Below are positions 612 to 12,951 of a stretch of 64,000 nucleotides of DNA, piece by piece. The stretch spans positions 1,054,001-1,118,000 of the forward strand of contig NZ_CP006587.1 in assembly GCF_000737515.1 (NCBI RefSeq). The letters run 5' to 3'. The notes beneath the pieces were generated by a model. That model was not told the DNA's origin. It saw only the letters and a list, made by a program, of their open reading frames with translations, and ran no database searches. A program made the position numbers and the translations under genes. This DNA is from Hymenobacter sp. APR13. GTDB lineage: Bacteria; Bacteroidota; Bacteroidia; Cytophagales; Hymenobacteraceae. The first letter of the stretch is position 1. The number at the start of each line of letters is the position of its first letter.

Positions 612-710
612 GTAGAGACGCAATATTTTGCGTCTCGTCGTTGCTGAGGTTGTTCGATATGCACCTTGCCGCATCGTTCAACGACGAGACGCAAAATATT
701 GCGTCTCTAC
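612..710. repeat. Family A palindromic repeat (REP/BIME), copy 1
   Basis: Two 32-nt arms (612-643 and 679-710) are perfect inverted copies separated by 35 nt. Each arm contains its own small palindrome, AGACGCAA-tatt-TTGCGTCT, so each can fold alone or the two can pair. The inner flanks differ: the left arm continues as gctgaggttgtt (arm type R1) and the right arm as cgttgaacgatgc read outward (arm type R2). It lies between thrC and the lysR-type gene. Related copies are at 7871, 8575, 12852 and 17787. Confidence 0.93.
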
Positions 711-2332: not shown

Positions 2333-5300
2333 ATGCTATCGAAAACACTTTCCCGCCTGCCGCTGCTGGTGTTGCTGGCTTTGCTGTGCGCCTGCTCCAA
2401 GTCCGGCTCCGAGGCCGGCCAGGACCCCAACGGCGAGGAAATTGACCCGTACCAGAACCTCGTGTTTCAGTTTGCCGAGGCCGTGGTGACGCCCGAGCTG
2501 CAGGACCGCTGGGATACGGTGCAGGTGGTGAGCTTCGAGCCGGCCGTGCGCGGCAAGTTCAAGTGGACGTCGGACCGGGAGCTGGTGTTTTCGCCCAGCA
2601 CGCCGTTCAAGCCCAGCACGAACTTCAAGGCCACGCTGCGCAAGGAGGCCCTGCCCGAAGGCAAGCGCAACGCCGAGCTGCCCGAAAACCGCCAGAAATT
2701 CCACACGCCCTACCTGGAGCTACAGGAGCCGCAGGCATTCTGGGGCCGCTCCAGTCGGGCCGCCGGCACCGCCGAGATGCGCGTGGAGCTGCCCTTCAAC
2801 TACGCCGTGAAGCCCGCCGACGTGAAGCCCCTGCTGCGCGTGACCCAGGACGGACAACCCGTGGCCTTTGAGGTGAGCGGAGAGCCGGGCGAGGTGGTGC
2901 GCGTGCGCCTCAACCAGCAGGTGCGCCCCGGCACGCCGCTCACCGTGGCGCTGGCCCAGGGCTTGCACGCCGTGGGCAGCGACCAGCCTAGCACCGCCGA
3001 CTACGAAACCCAGGTAACCGTGCCCGACCCCGAGGCCCTGCAGGTAACCACCATCGAAGGCTCGCTGAAAAACGCCGACCCGATGGTGCTCATCACCACC
3101 AACCAGCCCGTCACGGCCACCGATTTGCAGAGCTACATCACCGTGTCGCCGCAGGTGGCCTACGAGGTGGAGGAAACGGAAAACGGCGTGCGGCTGAAAG
3201 GCGGCTTCGAGGTGGGCCGCACTTACCAGATTGGCGTGAACCAGGGCCTGCGCGGAGCGCTGGGTGGGATGCTGGGTGAGGGTGTGACGCAGTCGGTGAG
3301 CTTCTCCGACGAGCGGCCTACCATCAGCTTCGGCAGCGCTGAGAAGGCCATGTACCTCGACGCTCTGGGCTCCCGCAACCTGGGCGTGCGCATCAACGAG
3401 GTAAACCAAGTGAAGGTGACCATTGCCAAGGTGTACGCCAACAACATTCAGCAGCTGCTGCGCGGCGGCAGCCAGTACGGCTACCCCGAGTACGACGGCG
3501 AGGAAAGCAGCGAGGAAGAAGACGACGGGGGCGAGTACGTGGACCGCTCCTTCCAGTACTACGACGTGGAGAACCTGGGCAACGTCCTCACGGAGCGCAC
3601 CTACACCGTGTCGGGGCTGCCGAAGGCGCAGGGGCTGCGGCTGCTGAACCTGAACCTCAAAGACCTGGAGTTTTCGGGCGGGCTGAAAGGCCTGTACGTG
3701 ATAAAGGTGCAGGACACCGAGCGGCAGTGGCTGCAGGTAAGCAAGCTGGTGGCCGTTTCGGACATCGGGCTGATTGTGAAGCAGGGCAAGGCCGGCAGCA
3801 CGCTGGTGTTTGCCAACTCCATCCGCAACGCCAAGCCGCTTTCCGGCGTGGAGCTGCGCTACATCAGCACCAACAACCAGGTGATGGGCACCGGCCTTTC
3901 CAACGGCGACGGTGTGGCCCGCTTCGACAGCACCGCCGCCAACGGCCGCTTCAAGCTAGGCATGGTGATGGCCCAGCAGGGCAACGACTTCACCTTCCTC
4001 GACCTGAGCCGCAGCCGCGTGGAAACCTCCCGCTTCGAGGTGGGCGGCCTGCAAACCAACGCCGCCCGCTACCAGGCCTTCCTCTACGGCGACCGGGACC
4101 TGTACCGCCCCGGCGACACCATCCAGACCAACACTGTACTGCGCACCGACGCCTGGCAGGCCCCGCCCAAGGGGCTGCCGGTAAAAATCCGGCTGCTGCT
4201 GCCCACTGGCAAGGAGTACGCCAGCCTGCAGAAAACCCTGAACGCGGCCGGCTCCTTCGAGGCCCGCTTCATCCTGCCCCCGGCCGTGATGACCGGCCTC
4301 TACACCCTGGAAGTGTTAACAGGCAACGATGTGCTGCTGACGTCGCGCCAGCTCTCGGTAGAGGAGTTTATTCCAGACCGCATGAAGGTGACGGTGAAGG
4401 CCGACCGCGCCGTGGTGAAGCCCGGGCAGTCGATTTCGGCGCAGATTACGGCCCAGAACCTGTTCGGTCCACCCGCCGCCGACCGCAAGTTTGAAGTGGA
4501 GTTTTCCTTGAAGGAAAAAGCCTTCAACCCCAAAGGCTTCGAGCAGTTCACCTTCGCCATCAACAGCGGGGAGCGGCGGCGCGGCAACTACGGCGACCTG
4601 GAATCGACGCCCATTGCCGACCGTTTCGAGAAGACCACCCGCGAAGGCACCACCGACGCCGCCGGCCGCGGCACCGCCACTTACGAAGTCCCCGACTACA
4701 CCGACCTGGGCACGCTGGAAGGCGCGGCCTTCACCACGGTGTTCGATGAAACCGGCCGCCCGGTAAACCGCCTGGCCACCTTCGAGGTGCAGACCCAACC
4801 GGTGCTGTTCGGCATTCGGAGCGCCGATGATTTGGTGAGCACCGGCCAGCCGCTGGCCGTGCAGCTGGCGGCCCTCACGCCGGCCGGCCAGCCCACCACG
4901 GCCCAGGCCCGGGTGCAGGTGGTGCGCCTGCTCTGGGAGACAGTGATTGAGCGCCAGGGCGGCCGCTACGTGTACAACTCGCAGAAGCGCGAGGAAGTGG
5001 TACTCAACCGCGTGGTGTCGGTGAAAGGCGCGGGCCAAGACGCCGGCCTGAACTTCACGCCCACTTACTCCGGCGAGTACGAAATCCGGGTATCGGGCAC
5101 CGGGGCCGTGACCTACGTGGCCCGGCGCGTGTACGCCTACGGCTACGGCGACACCCAGAGCAACTCGTTCGAAGTGAACAACGAGGGCGAGGTGACCATT
5201 GAGGCCGACAAGCCCAAGTACGAGCCCGGCGACGTGGCCCACCTGCTGCTGAAAACGCCCTTCCCCGGCCGCGTGCTCGTGACCGTGGAGCGGGACCGGG

Positions 5301-7861
5301 TGCTCGACCACTTCTACGTGACCACCGACGAGAAATCGGCCAAGGTGGACGTGCCCATCCGGGGCAACCACGTGCCCAACATCTACGTGACGGCCACCGC
5401 CATCCGCGAAATTAAGGACAACCGCCTGCCACTCACCGTGGCCCGGGGCTTCGTGCCGCTGACGGTGGAGAAGCCCGGCGCGCGCCTGCAAGTCGCCATT
5501 AAGGCACCCGCCCAAAGCCGCTCCCAAACCGCCCAAACCATTGAAGTAACCACCGCCCCCGGCGCGCAGGTGACGCTGGCCATGGTGGACGAGGGCATTC
5601 TGCAGATGAAGGACTACCGTACGCCCGACCCCTACGGCTACTTCTACCAGAAGCGCGCCCTGGAAGTGCAGGCCTACGACGTGTACCCCTTCCTGCTGCC
5701 CGAGCTGGGTTCCAGCAGCACCGGCGGCGACGGTTACGACCTCTCGCGCCGCACCACGCCCGTGCCCAACCGCCGGGTGCGCCTGCTCGCCAAATGGAGC
5801 GGCGTCCTCACCGCCGACGCCAGCGGCAAGGTGCGCTACAAACTGCAAATTCCGCAGTTCAGCGGGGCCATCCGCATCATGGCCGTGGCCTACAAAGGCG
5901 ACGCCTTTGGCTCGGCCGAGCACACCATGAAAGTGGCCGACCCGGTAGTTATTTCAACGGCCCTCCCCCGCTTCCTCAGCCCCGACGACACGGCTTATGT
6001 ACTTGTCACCATGACCAATACGCTAAACCACGGGGTCACTGGCTATGTAGGTATGCAAGCCACAGGTGCTCTGTTCCGCACTAAACCCGGTTCGGCGGGA
6101 CCAAACCTGGTGGGAGAAGAGCTTGTAAGCATCGGCGCCGGCAAAGAAATACAATTAGGCTTCCGTGTCCTTGCGAAGAATGCAATTGGCATAGGTACAT
6201 TGACACCTAACTTTTTTAATTCTAACACCAACGAATCGTTTAAGGAAACTATTGAAATTCCGGTCCGGCCCGCTTCGCCGCTGCAGAAGCGTACGGGGGC
6301 GGGCGTGGTGGCGGGCGGTGCGGCCCAGCAGCTGAACCTGCGCACCGACTTCCTGCCTTCCTCCCTGCGGAGCCAGCTGGTGGTGAGCCGCTCGCCCATG
6401 ACGGAGTTTGCCAAGGACCTACGCTACCTGCTGCAATACCCCTACGGCTGCTTGGAGCAAACCGTGTCGGCCGCCTTCCCGCAGCTGTACTACGGCGACC
6501 TGGCCGCCACCCTGGGCCAGAAGAACGGCCCAGGCACTAAGCACCAGGCACTAAGCACTAAATACAACCCCAACTACCACGTGCAGGAAGCCATCCGAAA
6601 GGTGGAAGCCCAGCAGATGTACAACGGCAGCCTCAGCTACTGGCCCGGCGGCGACTACGACAACTGGTGGGCCACCGCCTACGCCGCCCACTTCCTGCTG
6701 GAAGCCCAGCAAGCCGGCTTCGACGTGAACAAGAACGTGCTGGACCGGGTGCTGCGCTACCTGCAGGCCCGCGTCCGCAAGCGCGAAACCGACACCTACA
6801 ACATCATCCAGACCGGCGGCGTGATTCAGCCCGTGACGCTGGCTAAGAAGGAAATATCCTACTCGCTCTACGTGCTGGCTGTGGCCGGCCGCCCCGATGC
6901 TGTGGGCCTGAACTACTACAAAGCCAACCGCAAGCTGCTGCCCGAGGATTCGCGCTGGGTACTGGCCTGCGCTTTCGCCCTGAGCGGCAACCAGCGCAGC
7001 TACCGGGAGGCCCTGCCCACCCGATTTGGGGTGCAGTCCATAGCCGGCCGCCAGCTCGACGGCGCCTTCTCCTCCCCCATCCGCGACGAGGCCCTGGTGC
7101 TCAACGCCCTGCTCGCCGCCGACCCCGCCAACGCCCAGGTGAACGTGCTGGCCCGCCAACTCAGCCGCCAGGTGAAGCAGGCTGGCTGGCTCAGCACCCA
7201 GGAACGCGCCTTCGCGCTGCTGGCCCTCGGCAAGCTGGCCCGCAAAAACGCCGGCAGCACCGTTACGGCCAGTCTGCTGGCCGACGGCAAGGCCATTGGC
7301 AACTTCTCGGGCAAGGACCTCACGGTAAGCAACGTGGCCAACCGCCAGCTGGCCCTGCGTACCAGCGGCAAGGGTAGCCTCTACTACTTCTGGGAAACCG
7401 AGGGCATCTCGCCCACCGGCCAAATCCGCGAGGAAGACGCCTACCTGCAAGTGCGCCGCCAGTTCCTGAACCGTACCGGCCAGCCCGTGGGCAGCACCAG
7501 CTTCCGCCAGAATGATTTGGTGGTCGTGAAAATCACCATCCAATCAGCTGAGTCGGCCGGAGAGGTGAAGAACGTGGCCATTACCGACCTGCTCCCCGCC
7601 GGCCTGGAAATCGAAAACCCGCGTATCGGGGCCGTGCGCGACATCACCTGGGCCACCGATGCCGCCCAACCGGACTACCTCGACGTGCGCGACGACCGAA
7701 TCAACCTCTTCACCACCGTCACGCCCCAGCCCAAGTCGTTCTACTACCTCTGCCGCGCCGTCTCGAAAGGCACCTTCAAGCTCGGCCCCGTCAGCGCCGA
7801 CGCCATGTACAACGCCGAGTACCACAGCTACGCCGGCAGCGGCGTGGTGCGGGTGCGGTAA
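2333..7861 (+). CDS. alpha-2-macroglobulin family lipoprotein (YfhM-like)
   Basis: A 1842-residue bacterial alpha-2-macroglobulin, thought to trap invading proteases in the periplasm and protect the cell when the wall is damaged. A lipoprotein signal with the lipid-anchored cysteine near residue 21 (LLCACSKS) is followed by serial MG/Big-like domains, an A2M region around IPQFSGAIRIMAVAYKGD, and a thioester domain. The thioester motif YGCLEQT has its cysteine at residue 1373 and glutamine at 1376, so covalent trapping should be possible. The C terminus carries a DUF11-like region (VAITDLLPAGLEIENP). It precedes pbpC as in many bacteria. Two oddities: a segment at about 6000-6255 is visibly AT-richer than the rest, and 6533-6560 reads like an intergenic word repeat inserted in frame. 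Confidence 0.93.
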   Translation: MLSKTLSRLPLLVLLALLCACSKSGSEAGQDPNGEEIDPYQNLVFQFAEAVVTPELQDRWDTVQVVSFEPAVRGKFKWTSDRELVFSPSTPFKPSTNFKATLRKEALPEGKRNAELPENRQKFHTPYLELQEPQAFWGRSSRAAGTAEMRVELPFNYAVKPADVKPLLRVTQDGQPVAFEVSGEPGEVVRVRLNQQVRPGTPLTVALAQGLHAVGSDQPSTADYETQVTVPDPEALQVTTIEGSLKNADPMVLITTNQPVTATDLQSYITVSPQVAYEVEETENGVRLKGGFEVGRTYQIGVNQGLRGALGGMLGEGVTQSVSFSDERPTISFGSAEKAMYLDALGSRNLGVRINEVNQVKVTIAKVYANNIQQLLRGGSQYGYPEYDGEESSEEEDDGGEYVDRSFQYYDVENLGNVLTERTYTVSGLPKAQGLRLLNLNLKDLEFSGGLKGLYVIKVQDTERQWLQVSKLVAVSDIGLIVKQGKAGSTLVFANSIRNAKPLSGVELRYISTNNQVMGTGLSNGDGVARFDSTAANGRFKLGMVMAQQGNDFTFLDLSRSRVETSRFEVGGLQTNAARYQAFLYGDRDLYRPGDTIQTNTVLRTDAWQAPPKGLPVKIRLLLPTGKEYASLQKTLNAAGSFEARFILPPAVMTGLYTLEVLTGNDVLLTSRQLSVEEFIPDRMKVTVKADRAVVKPGQSISAQITAQNLFGPPAADRKFEVEFSLKEKAFNPKGFEQFTFAINSGERRRGNYGDLESTPIADRFEKTTREGTTDAAGRGTATYEVPDYTDLGTLEGAAFTTVFDETGRPVNRLATFEVQTQPVLFGIRSADDLVSTGQPLAVQLAALTPAGQPTTAQARVQVVRLLWETVIERQGGRYVYNSQKREEVVLNRVVSVKGAGQDAGLNFTPTYSGEYEIRVSGTGAVTYVARRVYAYGYGDTQSNSFEVNNEGEVTIEADKPKYEPGDVAHLLLKTPFPGRVLVTVERDRVLDHFYVTTDEKSAKVDVPIRGNHVPNIYVTATAIREIKDNRLPLTVARGFVPLTVEKPGARLQVAIKAPAQSRSQTAQTIEVTTAPGAQVTLAMVDEGILQMKDYRTPDPYGYFYQKRALEVQAYDVYPFLLPELGSSSTGGDGYDLSRRTTPVPNRRVRLLAKWSGVLTADASGKVRYKLQIPQFSGAIRIMAVAYKGDAFGSAEHTMKVADPVVISTALPRFLSPDDTAYVLVTMTNTLNHGVTGYVGMQATGALFRTKPGSAGPNLVGEELVSIGAGKEIQLGFRVLAKNAIGIGTLTPNFFNSNTNESFKETIEIPVRPASPLQKRTGAGVVAGGAAQQLNLRTDFLPSSLRSQLVVSRSPMTEFAKDLRYLLQYPYGCLEQTVSAAFPQLYYGDLAATLGQKNGPGTKHQALSTKYNPNYHVQEAIRKVEAQQMYNGSLSYWPGGDYDNWWATAYAAHFLLEAQQAGFDVNKNVLDRVLRYLQARVRKRETDTYNIIQTGGVIQPVTLAKKEISYSLYVLAVAGRPDAVGLNYYKANRKLLPEDSRWVLACAFALSGNQRSYREALPTRFGVQSIAGRQLDGAFSSPIRDEALVLNALLAADPANAQVNVLARQLSRQVKQAGWLSTQERAFALLALGKLARKNAGSTVTASLLADGKAIGNFSGKDLTVSNVANRQLALRTSGKGSLYYFWETEGISPTGQIREEDAYLQVRRQFLNRTGQPVGSTSFRQNDLVVVKITIQSAESAGEVKNVAITDLLPAGLEIENPRIGAVRDITWATDAAQPDYLDVRDDRINLFTTVTPQPKSFYYLCRAVSKGTFKLGPVSADAMYNAEYHSYAGSGVVRVR

Positions 7862-7870
7862 CAGAACGGT

Positions 7871-7992
7871 GTAGAGACGCAATATTTTGCGTCTCGTCGT
7901 TGCTGATGTTGTTTGGGCAGCGCGGTTCCGGGCCGTTCAACTACGTGCCACCGCATCGTTCAACGACGAGACGCAAAATATTGCGTCTCTAC
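7871..7992. repeat. Family A palindromic repeat, copy 2 (left of the RAYT)
   Basis: Arms at 7871-7902 and 7961-7992 are perfect 32-nt inverted copies. The left arm is type R1 (gctgatgttgtt follows) and the right arm type R2. It begins 9 nt after the alpha-2-macroglobulin stop and ends 28 nt before the transposase start. Confidence 0.95.
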
Positions 7993-8020
7993 ACCGGTAC
8001 AATTGCTTTATGCCTCACCT

Positions 8021-8569
8021 ATGGACTCCGGGCTGTATCAAGATAAATACCGCATTGCTTCAACTCGCTGGCATGGATACGACTACAGCCAGAACGGTGC
8101 GTATTTCGTCACTATCTGCACGCATAGCCGACGCCGGTATTTTGGGGAGATACAAGCTGGACAAGCCATAGGTAAAGCAGCAGTATTGACTCCCACTCCT
8201 CTGGCAGAGCGGGCCTTGACATGTTGGCAGGAAATACCGGACCACTTTGCTTTTGCAGTACCGGACGCTTTTGTCGTGATGCCTGACCATGTACACGGCA
8301 TCATCTTCTTCCACAAACCGGATACGAATACGGAAGCCGCTGCCACGTTCGGCCCACAAAGCCAAAATTTGGCGGCTGTCGTGCGGGGCTTCAAAGTAGG
8401 CGTGAAGGCCTGGGCAACGCGTGCCGGCGTGGAATTTACGTGGCAGCGGAGGTACTTTGACCGGGTGATTCGCAATGAAGTCGAGCTACAGAAAGCACGG
8501 GAATACATTCGCAATAATCCATCCCAATGGTCGGCTGACCACGACAAAGCAGATGGTTTGTTCCGTTGA
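8021..8569 (+). CDS. REP-associated tyrosine transposase (RAYT), Y1/HUH superfamily
   Basis: A 182-residue single-strand transposase of the IS200-like Y1 superfamily, RAYT branch. The HUH motif is H90-V-H92 in VVMPDHVHGI, after the conserved beta strand YFVTICTHSRRRYFG. The likely nucleophile is Y162 in EYIRNNPSQW. RAYTs nick and join REP hairpins and are regarded as domesticated enzymes that spread REP sequences. Here the gene sits between two REP pairs (7871-7992 and 8575-8700), the expected arrangement. The ATG at 8021 is chosen because the extension upstream reads through the repeat arm. The ORF is intact and all catalytic residues are present, so it may be active. It splits the alpha-2-macroglobulin/pbpC pair. 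Confidence 0.93.
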   Translation: MDSGLYQDKYRIASTRWHGYDYSQNGAYFVTICTHSRRRYFGEIQAGQAIGKAAVLTPTPLAERALTCWQEIPDHFAFAVPDAFVVMPDHVHGIIFFHKPDTNTEAAATFGPQSQNLAAVVRGFKVGVKAWATRAGVEFTWQRRYFDRVIRNEVELQKAREYIRNNPSQWSADHDKADGLFR

Positions 8570-8574
8570 ACGAG

Positions 8575-8700
8575 GTAGAGACGCAATATTTTGCGTCTCG
8601 TCATTGAACGATTCAGAATTGCCCGAACGCCGGAAATAGAAAACCTCAGCTACATCTAATAACATCAGCAACGACGAGACGCAAAATATTGCGTCTCTAC
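8575..8700. repeat. Family A palindromic repeat, copy 3 (right of the RAYT)
   Basis: Arms at 8575-8606 and 8669-8700, inverted with one mismatch (tcattg versus tcgttg). Here the left arm is type R2 and the right arm type R1 (aacatcagcaacg), the reverse polarity of copy 2. The pair therefore brackets the transposase symmetrically. It starts 5 nt after the RAYT stop and ends 5 nt before the pbpC start. Confidence 0.95.
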
Positions 8701-8705
8701 ATCCC

Positions 8706-11012
8706 ATGAAACGCCGCCCCCTTTACCGCTTGCTGGCGGGCTTTGGCCTGTTGTTGCTGCTTCTGCTGGGGCTGGATTTTGCCTTTCCGGTGCCGCCGGC
8801 TCCGCAGTACTCGCCCCTGGTGCTGGCCGCCGACGGCTCGGTGCTGCACGCCTACCTCAACCCCACCCAGAAGTGGCGGATGAAAACCGAGCTGCGCGAG
8901 ATTACGCCGGTGCTGCGGGCGGCCATCATCGAGAAAGAGGATCGGTGGTTTCGGTGGCATTTCGGAGTGAACCCCGTGGCGCTGGTGCAGGCGGCCGGGC
9001 GCAACCTGTTCGGCACGGGGCGCACCACCGGGGCCAGCACCATTACGATGCAGGTGGCCCGGCTGCTGGAACCCAAGGAGCGCACGTTGCCCAACAAGCT
9101 GCTGGAAATGGCCCGGGCCGTGCAGCTCGAATCACATTACAGCAAGGACGAAATCCTGCAGCTGTACCTGAACCTGGTGCCCTACGGCGGCAACGTGGAA
9201 GGCGTGAAATCGGCCGCGCTGCTCTACTTCCAGCAAACGCCCGACTACCTCTCTCTGGCCCAGACGGTGACGCTGGCCATCATCCCGAACCGGCCGCGGG
9301 GGCTGGTACTGGGCAAGAACAACGCGGCCGTGCTACGGGAGCGGAACCGGTGGCTACAGCGCTTCGGGGCGGCCGGGCTGTTTCCGGCGCAGGACGTGGC
9401 CGACGCGCTACTAGAGCCGCTGGATGTGCAGCGCCACGCCGCGCCCACCCTGGCCCCGCACCTGTCGCGGCGGCTGGTACGGCAGTTTCCGCACGCGGCC
9501 ATCATCCGCAGCAGTTTGCAGCGCAGCAAGCAAAGCAAGGCCGAAGACCTCACGCTGGGCTACGTGCGCCGCCTGCGCGAGCTGGGCATCACGCAGGCGG
9601 CCGTGCTGGTGGTGAACAACCGCACCCGGCAGGTAGAAGCCTACGTGGGCTCGGCCGATTTCCGCGACTTCGCCAGCCAGGGCCAGAACGACGGCGTGGT
9701 GGCCGTCCGCTCGCCGGGCAGCACGCTCAAGCCGTTTCTGTACGCGCTGGCCATGGACCGGGGCCTCGTCACGCCCAAGCAACTGCTGCCCGACGTCCCC
9801 ACCAACTTCCAGGGCTACCGGCCCGAGAACTTCGACAAGCGCTGCAATGGCGAAGTGACGCTGGAACGCGCCTTGGCCTACTCGCTCAACATCCCGGCCG
9901 TGCGCGTGCTCAACCAACTCGGCGTACCCACTTTCACCGAAAAGCTCCAGCAGGCCGGTTTCCAGAACGTGAAGCGCAACCGCGACCAGTTGGGCCTGAG
10001 CAGCATTCTGGGCGGCTGCGGCGCGAACTTGGAGGAACTAACGGGCTTGTATGTGACACTGGCCGATGCCGGGCAGTACGCGCCGTTGCAGCTGACATCC
10101 TTCACGAAGCCTAAGTCCGCAACATCCCTGATTTCCGAGTCGGCAGCCTTTCTCACCACCGACATCCTCAGCCAACTTACCCGCCCCGACCTCCCGCTGG
10201 GGGCCGCCAGCAGCATGCGGTTACCCAAAGTGGCCTGGAAAACCGGCACCAGCTACGGCCGCCGCGACGCCTGGAGCATCGGCTACAACCGGGAGTACAC
10301 CATTGGCGTGTGGCTGGGCAACTTCAGCGGCCAGGGCAGCCCGGCCCTCACCGGGGCCGACGTGGCCACGCCGCTGCTGTTCGACCTGTTCAACGCCCTG
10401 GCCTACAACTCGCCCAACGACTGGTTTGCGCCCCCGGCGGCGCTGGACTTCCGGCTGGTGTGCACCAAAAGCGGCTTGGTGCCGGGCGAGAACTGCCCCC
10501 ACCAAGTAATCGACTATTTCCTCCCCAGCGTGAGCAGCGGGCAGCGCTGCCAGCACCAGCGGGAGGTGCTGGTGTCAGAAGATGGCGGGTTTGCCTACTG
10601 CCGGGCCTGCGCGCCGGCGGCCGGCTACCGTCGGGAGTTATATCCGAATCTGCTACCGGAGGTAGCGGCTTATAAGGAGGCCCAGGGCATTCCGTACCGC
10701 CGCCTGCCGCCCCACAACCCACAGTGCCAGCTGGTGCGCGGCGGCCCCGAAAAAGCCCCCAACATCACCTCGCCCACCGCCAACACCGAGTACGTGCTCA
10801 ACGCTCACGAGCAGCAACAGCTCCTACTGAGCTGTACCACCGACAACGAGGTACGTCAGGTGCACTGGTACGTGAACGACCAGTTTCTGCGCACGGCCCG
10901 GGCCACCGAGCGGGTCTTTTTCCGCCCGCAGCCCGGCCCGCTCAAAATCTCCTGCGCCGACGACCACGGCCGCAACACCGACGTGCTGGTGACGGTGACG
11001 GAGCTGGAGTAA
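8706..11012 (+). CDS. pbpC: penicillin-binding protein 1C (bifunctional glycosyltransferase/transpeptidase)
   Basis: A 768-residue peptidoglycan polymerase. After one N-terminal membrane helix (about 7-25), the GT51 glycosyltransferase domain shows EKEDRWFRWHFG and GASTITMQVARLL. The transpeptidase domain has the catalytic S339-T-L-K342 in SPGSTLKPF, the SLN triad in LAYSLNIPAV and K512-T-G-T. The C terminus (about 680-768) matches the BiPBP_C domain typical of PBP1C. Length is normal for the family. It is normally co-encoded with the YfhM-type macroglobulin, and the two are thought to cooperate in defending the sacculus. Here a REP pair lies 5 nt ahead of the start, so translation begins at the edge of a hairpin. 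Confidence 0.95.
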   Translation: MKRRPLYRLLAGFGLLLLLLLGLDFAFPVPPAPQYSPLVLAADGSVLHAYLNPTQKWRMKTELREITPVLRAAIIEKEDRWFRWHFGVNPVALVQAAGRNLFGTGRTTGASTITMQVARLLEPKERTLPNKLLEMARAVQLESHYSKDEILQLYLNLVPYGGNVEGVKSAALLYFQQTPDYLSLAQTVTLAIIPNRPRGLVLGKNNAAVLRERNRWLQRFGAAGLFPAQDVADALLEPLDVQRHAAPTLAPHLSRRLVRQFPHAAIIRSSLQRSKQSKAEDLTLGYVRRLRELGITQAAVLVVNNRTRQVEAYVGSADFRDFASQGQNDGVVAVRSPGSTLKPFLYALAMDRGLVTPKQLLPDVPTNFQGYRPENFDKRCNGEVTLERALAYSLNIPAVRVLNQLGVPTFTEKLQQAGFQNVKRNRDQLGLSSILGGCGANLEELTGLYVTLADAGQYAPLQLTSFTKPKSATSLISESAAFLTTDILSQLTRPDLPLGAASSMRLPKVAWKTGTSYGRRDAWSIGYNREYTIGVWLGNFSGQGSPALTGADVATPLLFDLFNALAYNSPNDWFAPPAALDFRLVCTKSGLVPGENCPHQVIDYFLPSVSSGQRCQHQREVLVSEDGGFAYCRACAPAAGYRRELYPNLLPEVAAYKEAQGIPYRRLPPHNPQCQLVRGGPEKAPNITSPTANTEYVLNAHEQQQLLLSCTTDNEVRQVHWYVNDQFLRTARATERVFFRPQPGPLKISCADDHGRNTDVLVTVTELE

Positions 11013-12851: not shown

Positions 12852-12951
12852 GTAGAGACGCAATATTTTGCGTCTCGTAATTGAACGGCACCGCCAGACG
12901 ATTGACGTAACAACATCAGCAACGACGAGACGCAAAACATTGCGTCTCTAC
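12852..12951. repeat. Family A palindromic repeat, copy 4
   Basis: Arms at 12852-12883 and 12920-12951. The left arm is type R2 (ttgaacggc) and the right arm type R1 (aacatcagcaacg). A few mismatches occur between the arms (cgtaattg versus cgtcgttg; aaaacatt versus aaaatatt). It sits inside the efflux operon between the TolC and adaptor genes. Confidence 0.93.

Follow-up and report, generated by a model that had tools for sequence, protein, structure and literature searches.

RAYT genes (for transposases of the Y1 tyrosine family that are associated with repetitive extragenic palindromic, or REP, sequences; also TnpA_REP) are described as always lying between two inverted REPs, and their presence as correlating with REP numbers (Nunvar 2010, PMC2817692). 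A RAYT together with its REPs has been named a REPtron, and heterodimeric REP pairs are on record (Di Nocera 2013, PMC3733652). Among further reports, one describes orthologous RAYT places with different REP classes, RAYTs that occupy novel sites, and REPs that lack a RAYT (PMC3686654); another argues that the REP pair, or REPIN, moves and that the RAYT does not move itself (PMC3116915); and a third presents RAYTs as single-copy and vertically inherited (PMC8049555). Cleavage by TnpA_REP has been studied in other species (PMC8266576), and RAYTs of other subclasses are already known in Bacteroidetes (PMC6006769). Here we describe a RAYT gene with two inverted REP pairs between the genes for alpha-2-macroglobulin (A2M) and penicillin-binding protein 1C (pbpC) in a 64,000-nucleotide stretch of Hymenobacter sp. 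APR13 (the window; its genome, labeled G000, comprises 5.01 Mb in 4 contigs). The unit is in all likelihood a REPtron, in which a domesticated, single-copy RAYT is surrounded by its cognate GTAG-REP family and would move in trans a pair of REPs that differ in their tails (R1 and R2).

A RAYT gene between inverted REP pairs

The extent given in the initial annotation (7871-8700) is exact, starting and ending with the outermost bases of the left and right REP pairs; the annotation also correctly described an intact RAYT with H90/H92 and Y162 between REP pairs of opposite polarity (Table 1). These residues are counted from the ATG at 8021, in a reading frame that ends at 8569 (a longer, TTG-started frame, 7913-8569, is also listed); they are numbered 93, 95, and 165 in the RAYT alignment, since it is counted from position 8012. 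The HUH motif and the single catalytic Tyr of the Y1 family are invariant across 34 aligned RAYT sequences. The window protein reaches the Pfam Y1_Tnp cut-off (23 of 23 bits), and its predicted fold agrees with that of E. coli TnpA_REP. A search of its own genome with the protein gives a single match (E 0.01 or better), so the gene is single-copy; the nearest named loci, in H. duratus and H. perfusus, have 91% RAYT identity.

Each REP next to the RAYT is a 25-nt hairpin, GTAGAGACGC-AATATTTT-GCGTCTC, plus an unpaired foot, and the two REPs of a pair face each other. On the left the outer tail is R1 (GTCGTTGCTGATGTT) and the inner tail R2 (GTCGTTGAACG); on the right R2 (GTCATTGAACG) is inner and R1 outer. 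A single REP hairpin folded as DNA has an energy of -10 kcal/mol (z -6.9), and each RAYT-flanking pair folds as one long DNA hairpin (left, -48.4, z -12.3; right, -35.7, z -9.5).

The same repeat is dispersed through the genome, with 62 copies of the exact REP 25-mer and 144 matches to the pattern GTAGAGACGCN{0,20}GCGTCTC, compared to 0 for the pattern read backward. Our pair survey covered all 62 exact copies with their surroundings and 99 hairpins over all loop types, the other loop types being under-sampled, as only the first places of the 144 pattern matches were listed. It yielded 30 same-family pairs with a median outer length of 98 nt (range 91-149; 98-100 nt in 20 of the 30); the RAYT-flanking pairs (122 and 126 nt) exceed most of the others in length. 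Both tails could be classed by rule in 23 pairs, and every one combined R1 with R2 (13 and 10 by orientation); the remaining 7 were judged R1/R2 by eye. The dispersed unit is likely an R1/R2 pair of about 98 nt. Beyond the GTAG foot, many pairs have AACGRT as their left flank and the complementary sequence as their right flank, with approximately 10 complementary bp in one case; an element end that reaches farther out, or a palindromic target, may account for this.

Table 1. Features of the RAYT unit, its dispersed relatives and its neighbors in the window (positions are those of the window)
Feature	Position	Strand	Evidence
Outer left REP hairpin, tail R1, GTAG foot facing outward	7871..7895	+	DNA fold -10 kcal/mol, z -6.9
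Inner left REP hairpin, tail R2	7968..7992	-	sequence and DNA fold
Left REP pair (REPIN/BIME), 122 nt, R1-R2	7871..7992	.	fold z -12.3
RAYT (TnpA_REP) gene, 182 aa, HUH H90/H92, Y162	8021..8569	+	
Inner right REP hairpin, tail R2	8575..8599	+	sequence and exact 25-mer search
Outer right REP hairpin, tail R1	8676..8700	-	sequence and exact 25-mer search
Right REP pair, 126 nt, R2-R1; aligns better with the single pair of G069 than the left pair does	8575..8700	.	fold z -9.5
Dispersed REP pair, same family, 99 nt, R1-R2	612..710	.	sequence, pair survey, fold
Dispersed REP pair, same family, 100 nt, R2-R1	12852..12951	.	sequence, pair survey, orthologous-place comparison
Bacterial A2M gene, left neighbor of the RAYT unit	2333..7861	+	
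pbpC gene, right neighbor of the RAYT unit	8706..11012	+	TIGR02073 above cut-off

Pairing of RAYTs with their REPs in Hymenobacter

We compared 120 Hymenobacter genomes (G-numbers below), 48 of which contain a match to the RAYT protein at 1e-5. The studied set comprises 40 matches with at least 44% identity from 34 genomes, 6 of which carry two. Outside it are 16 further weak matches (at most 42% identity); G005x, G065, and G115 (34-36% identity, with other or no repeats) were left out of the second tree and the counts, and G017a was left out of the REP-type count.

Hairpins of the form GTAGAGAC occur on both sides of 39 of the 40 RAYTs when up to 2 mismatches are allowed; 36 of the 40 have exact hairpins on both sides and 39 have at least one. 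Equal-sized control stretches farther out at 39 loci contained such hairpins in 1 of 78 cases with mismatches and in 0 of 78 exactly. The hairpin loops follow the RAYT tree, on which their 6 types require 5 changes, compared to a mean of 23.2 after shuffling, the types having been assigned by hand from the printed loops with the tree already seen. Loops resembling AATATTTT characterize the window's clade and GACACTTC a clade of ten, and the other clades carry GACCCTTC, short ATACTT-like, ATCCTT, or ACAT..TTGT loops.

REP abundance goes with RAYT presence. The exact 25-mer is present in 47 of the 120 genomes: in all 11 with a window-clade RAYT (median 13 copies) and in 36 of the 109 others (median 0; p 1.1e-7, uncorrected for kinship). 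For the wider pattern, the median is 16.5 in the 34 genomes that contribute to the studied set and 1.5 in the 86 others (p 2.7e-8, likewise uncorrected). The flanking hairpins, the loop-tree match and the copy numbers together bear out the pairing of this RAYT with its own REP family (family A) that the initial annotation had proposed, and the RAYT probably spreads these repeats. In the mechanism that we envisage, the RAYT would recognize the REP by its GTAG foot and its loop and bind it as a folded single strand; Y162 would nick the bound strand; and the REPIN of about 98 nt that an R1/R2 pair forms would be moved or copied in trans.

Two sets of observations weigh against this interpretation. 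First, the window protein falls short of the cut-off of the RAYT profile NF047646 (61.6 bits compared to 80). This profile is exceeded in 62 of the 120 genomes, and among the places listed none is any of the 40 studied RAYTs; the shortfall lowers the case for an equivalog of that model, rather than that for the RAYT-type fold and anatomy. Second, equal abundance of family A in relatives that lack this RAYT had been named at the outset as refuting the idea that the RAYT spreads it, and the data go part of the way toward this: 7 of the 109 genomes without a window-clade RAYT hold 16-39 exact REPs (G012, 39; G091, 33; G063, 23; G013, 22; G008, 21; G006, 18; G039, 16). G008 and G012 carry other-clade RAYTs, and all seven have some NF047646 match. 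In the close relatives G063 and G012, a Uma2-type gene occupies the RAYT place (Pfam Uma2 for G063; by eye for G012), a pattern that fits RAYT loss with surviving REPs, the other option being that the RAYT was never gained. The window's own genome likewise has GACACTTC-loop copies, though it has no RAYT of that loop's clade. Excerpts from PMC3686654 describe REPs without their own RAYT as quite frequent in Pseudomonas and Stenotrophomonas.

REP pairs in genomes without a window-clade RAYT would also be expected if the REPs were mere transcription terminators or protein-binding sites that lie near the RAYT by accident. We consider this explanation highly improbable, since hairpins matching the RAYT clade flank 39 of the 40 RAYTs compared to 1 of 78 controls, and since no family A hairpin occurs in the 2.3-3 kb stretches read around the three other Y1 genes of G000, one of which has different GTAG hairpins.

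Two further Y1 loci of G000 deserve description. At C1:851931-852256 (L324), inverted GTAGCGCGAACTTTGTAGTTCGCGC GTAG hairpins flank another RAYT-like gene that seems to be broken, apparently a second REPtron with a different REP family; a hairpin start resembling the one at this locus comes after the A2M stop in G084 and G014. At C1:1796263-1796568 (L323), a Y1 transposase gene is flanked by inverted repeats of 15 nt or more, with no GTRG hairpin found, and is TIRtron-like. Outside Hymenobacter, GTAGAGACG occurs within 350 bp in 19 of 76 RAYT loci, and cross-phylum sharing was not used as support. One contig binned as Bacteroidales (L065) carries a RAYT with 48% identity, and the REP after it is identical to the 25-mer of Hymenobacter; this reflects either transfer or wrong binning and was not used as support either.

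The mirror arrangement of the unit, R1 outside and R2 inside, had been read as a symmetric composite. It is real here; as a conserved rule it was rejected, since among the 9 units with four classed ends (31 of the 40 have at least one end unclassed) it holds for five (G000, G022, G051, G021, and G016), and the other four are R2-R2|R2-R2 (2) or R2-R2|R2-R1 (2). By itself, a single symmetric unit says little, because randomly oriented R1/R2 pairs would mirror each other 1/2 of the time and place R1 outside 1/4 of the time. Over the units there is a weaker trend in tail position, with inner R2 43 compared to R1 5 and outer R2 31 compared to R1 24 (Fisher p 1.8e-4, uncorrected for related rows).

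RAYTs at the A2M-pbpC junction

The pbpC gene was found in 118 of the 120 genomes, and its upstream DNA was read in 112 (only 1.5 kb in 30 of these), 6 of the 118 loci being left out. A RAYT lies at the A2M-pbpC junction in 15 genomes, about 73-171 bp past the A2M end, and it stays near A2M in G017, G054, G007, G030, G098, and G061 as well, although pbpC is 1.1 to 4.6 kb away from it in these genomes. It is inverted in G008 and G099 and not in G007, which belongs to the same RAYT clade (support 99/99). On the RAYT tree, a branch with weak support (75/73) separates the 15 junction RAYTs and G067a from the rest, and the junction label requires 2 changes, compared to 12.4 after shuffling; this single-branch result depends on omitting three long rows, with which there are 3 changes. 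G067a is a window-clade RAYT that, with its REP pairs, is sited away from A2M-pbpC, and may represent a rare relocation of a RAYT.

The initial annotation had suggested a self-mobile cassette, in which the two REP pairs are the ends of one RAYT-carrying transposon. The inverted REP ends that flank the RAYT, the location of G067a with its REP pairs elsewhere, and the 6 of 34 genomes whose two RAYTs are apart on the tree would be in line with it. It is, however, very unlikely, given that the genome has only one RAYT match, that 15 genomes share the A2M-pbpC place and cluster on the RAYT tree, and that two RAYT-less relatives show one REP pair rather than a clean empty site. The comparison of empty sites in relatives had been proposed as a check. 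No clean empty site was found among the RAYT-less junctions printed, which contain one REP pair (G069 and G019), a Uma2-type open reading frame (G063 and G012), or other short repeats (G026 and G033). In the A2M, pbpC, and TolC-like gene spacers of G063, G041, G084, and G053 we also observed a different repeat, with TGTCATCCTGAGC / GTCATGCTGAGC hairpins.

The A2M ends carry further footprints. They were drawn from 71 of the 112 pbpC loci (41 had no A2M match in the stretch), and 64 were read and 7 unread. The A2M stop TAG coincides with the TAG of the REP foot in 11 of the 64, namely in 9 of the 13 RAYT-bearing ends (among them G005, where the REP has decayed) and in the RAYT-less G069 and G019. 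As the GTAG foot supplies the stop codon, the inserted REP determines where the gene ends in these 11 genomes, to which that of the window does not belong. The single REP pair between A2M and pbpC in G069 and G019 aligns better to the right than to the left pair of G000 and G105 (scores of 70 compared to 38.5 and of 89.5 compared to 69.5), and the RAYTs of G105 (at the junction), G017a, and G061 have an in-frame stop. Single pairs and in-frame stops suggest decay and deletion, which recombination of same-facing hairpins would explain most simply; alternatively, a RAYT may have been gained into a single pair.

Several results count against a RAYT simply settled at this junction. The window A2M itself ends with TAA and the REP starts a short distance downstream, and the two are likewise apart in G051, G098, and G061; the A2M end of G064 is similar, with GTAGAGGCGC. 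On the A2M tree the junction RAYT is patchy (13 changes compared to 13.7 after shuffling; quick method, 69 rows). The RAYTs from a single host clade do not group as a clade themselves, with p values of the approximately unbiased (AU) test of 0.027 with G067a and 0.0007 without it (2e-56 for G005 + G105a), and a clade made up of the 15 A2M-locus RAYTs alone, leaving out G067a, is likewise rejected (p-AU 1e-4). Inheritance of the junction RAYT by strict vertical descent was therefore rejected: the conflict between the RAYT and host trees requires exchange or relocation. The junction is shared, yet RAYT lineages have come and gone there, and exchange among them is probable.

The same conflict could arise if the junction were a hot spot for several independent RAYT-unit insertions, perhaps drawn by the stop-codon GTAG. 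This reading, which we regard as unlikely, would accommodate three RAYT clades at one place, both RAYT orientations, and the several RAYT-less A2M ends that read CGGTAG. It is opposed by the RAYT tree, in which a single branch (support only 75/73) sets the A2M-locus RAYTs apart together with G067a, and by the start of the left REP at the A2M stop in 9 of the 13 RAYT-bearing ends, across three clades. A common start base is expected of one old insertion followed by exchange, and targeted insertion would give the same.

In our main reading, the gene has for the most part stayed put at A2M-pbpC, has changed orientation there, seems to have been swapped for other RAYT lineages, and has been lost, most simply by homologous recombination between flanking REP pairs or flanking genes. 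A bolder reading, which we consider rather unlikely, is that the junction is a long-lived RAYT address at which lineages are exchanged, flipped, and deleted by REP-pair recombination, leaving single pairs that resemble solo long terminal repeats, and that RAYTs cross between Hymenobacter species in this way and not by transposition.

Among the dispersed pairs, that at 12852-12951 is absent from the orthologous place in G063 and G069, where the junctions are not base-alignable. At this place we observed AACACTTT/GACACTTC loops in G012 and G022 and AATATTTT-like loops in G000 and G051, a difference due to either in-place loop exchange or separate insertions.

Comparison with described REPtrons

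The REPtron is a known arrangement from other bacteria, and Hymenobacter is a genus for which the literature collection searched gave no report of RAYTs or of repetitive extragenic palindromes. The present set extends it to 34 genomes that carry related RAYTs and several REP subtypes, 15 of them with a common home locus. Two questions thereby become testable: why a domesticated transposase stays where it is, and whether it is the REP pair that replicates and not the RAYT gene.

An autonomous element of the IS200/IS605 type (IS608, ISDra2) was rejected, given the single copy and the single pair or other DNA at the RAYT-less junctions printed; the unit differs from such elements in that no second element copy was found and in its GTAG foot and REPs dispersed as pairs. 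The excerpted account of TnpA_Y1 subclass 2.7 (PMC6006769) gives the motifs [ND]HVH, WQ, and YI[LR][NQ]NP, long GT[AG]G REPs, and an occurrence in Cyanobacteria and a few other phyla. With DHVH, WQ, YIRNNP, and long GTAG REPs, the window protein belongs there by motif reading only; its Y motif also fits subclass 2.4, whereas DHVH does not. As in REPINs and BIMEs, the REPs form inverted pairs of similar length (median 98 nt here) that fold as one long hairpin, the difference being that all 23 rule-classed pairs are R1/R2 heterodimers. A heterodimer-only REP family, GTAG-3 of Enterobacteriaceae, has already been described (PMC3733652).

The closest match is the REPtron itself. Inverted GT[AG]G REPs flank the gene, further copies are dispersed in the genome, and there is a single gene per REP type. 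With the REPtrons of E. coli (yafM), Stenotrophomonas, and Pseudomonas, as excerpted from PMC2817692, PMC3733652, and PMC3686654, it shares a single-copy RAYT between inverted GTAG-REPs, dispersed cognate REPs, REPs without their RAYT, and differing REP classes at orthologous places. Unlike these known REPtrons, it has a Hymenobacter host, a GTAGAGACGC-loop-GCGTCTC hairpin with two tail types, and an A2M-pbpC home with inverted-gene and single-pair footprints.
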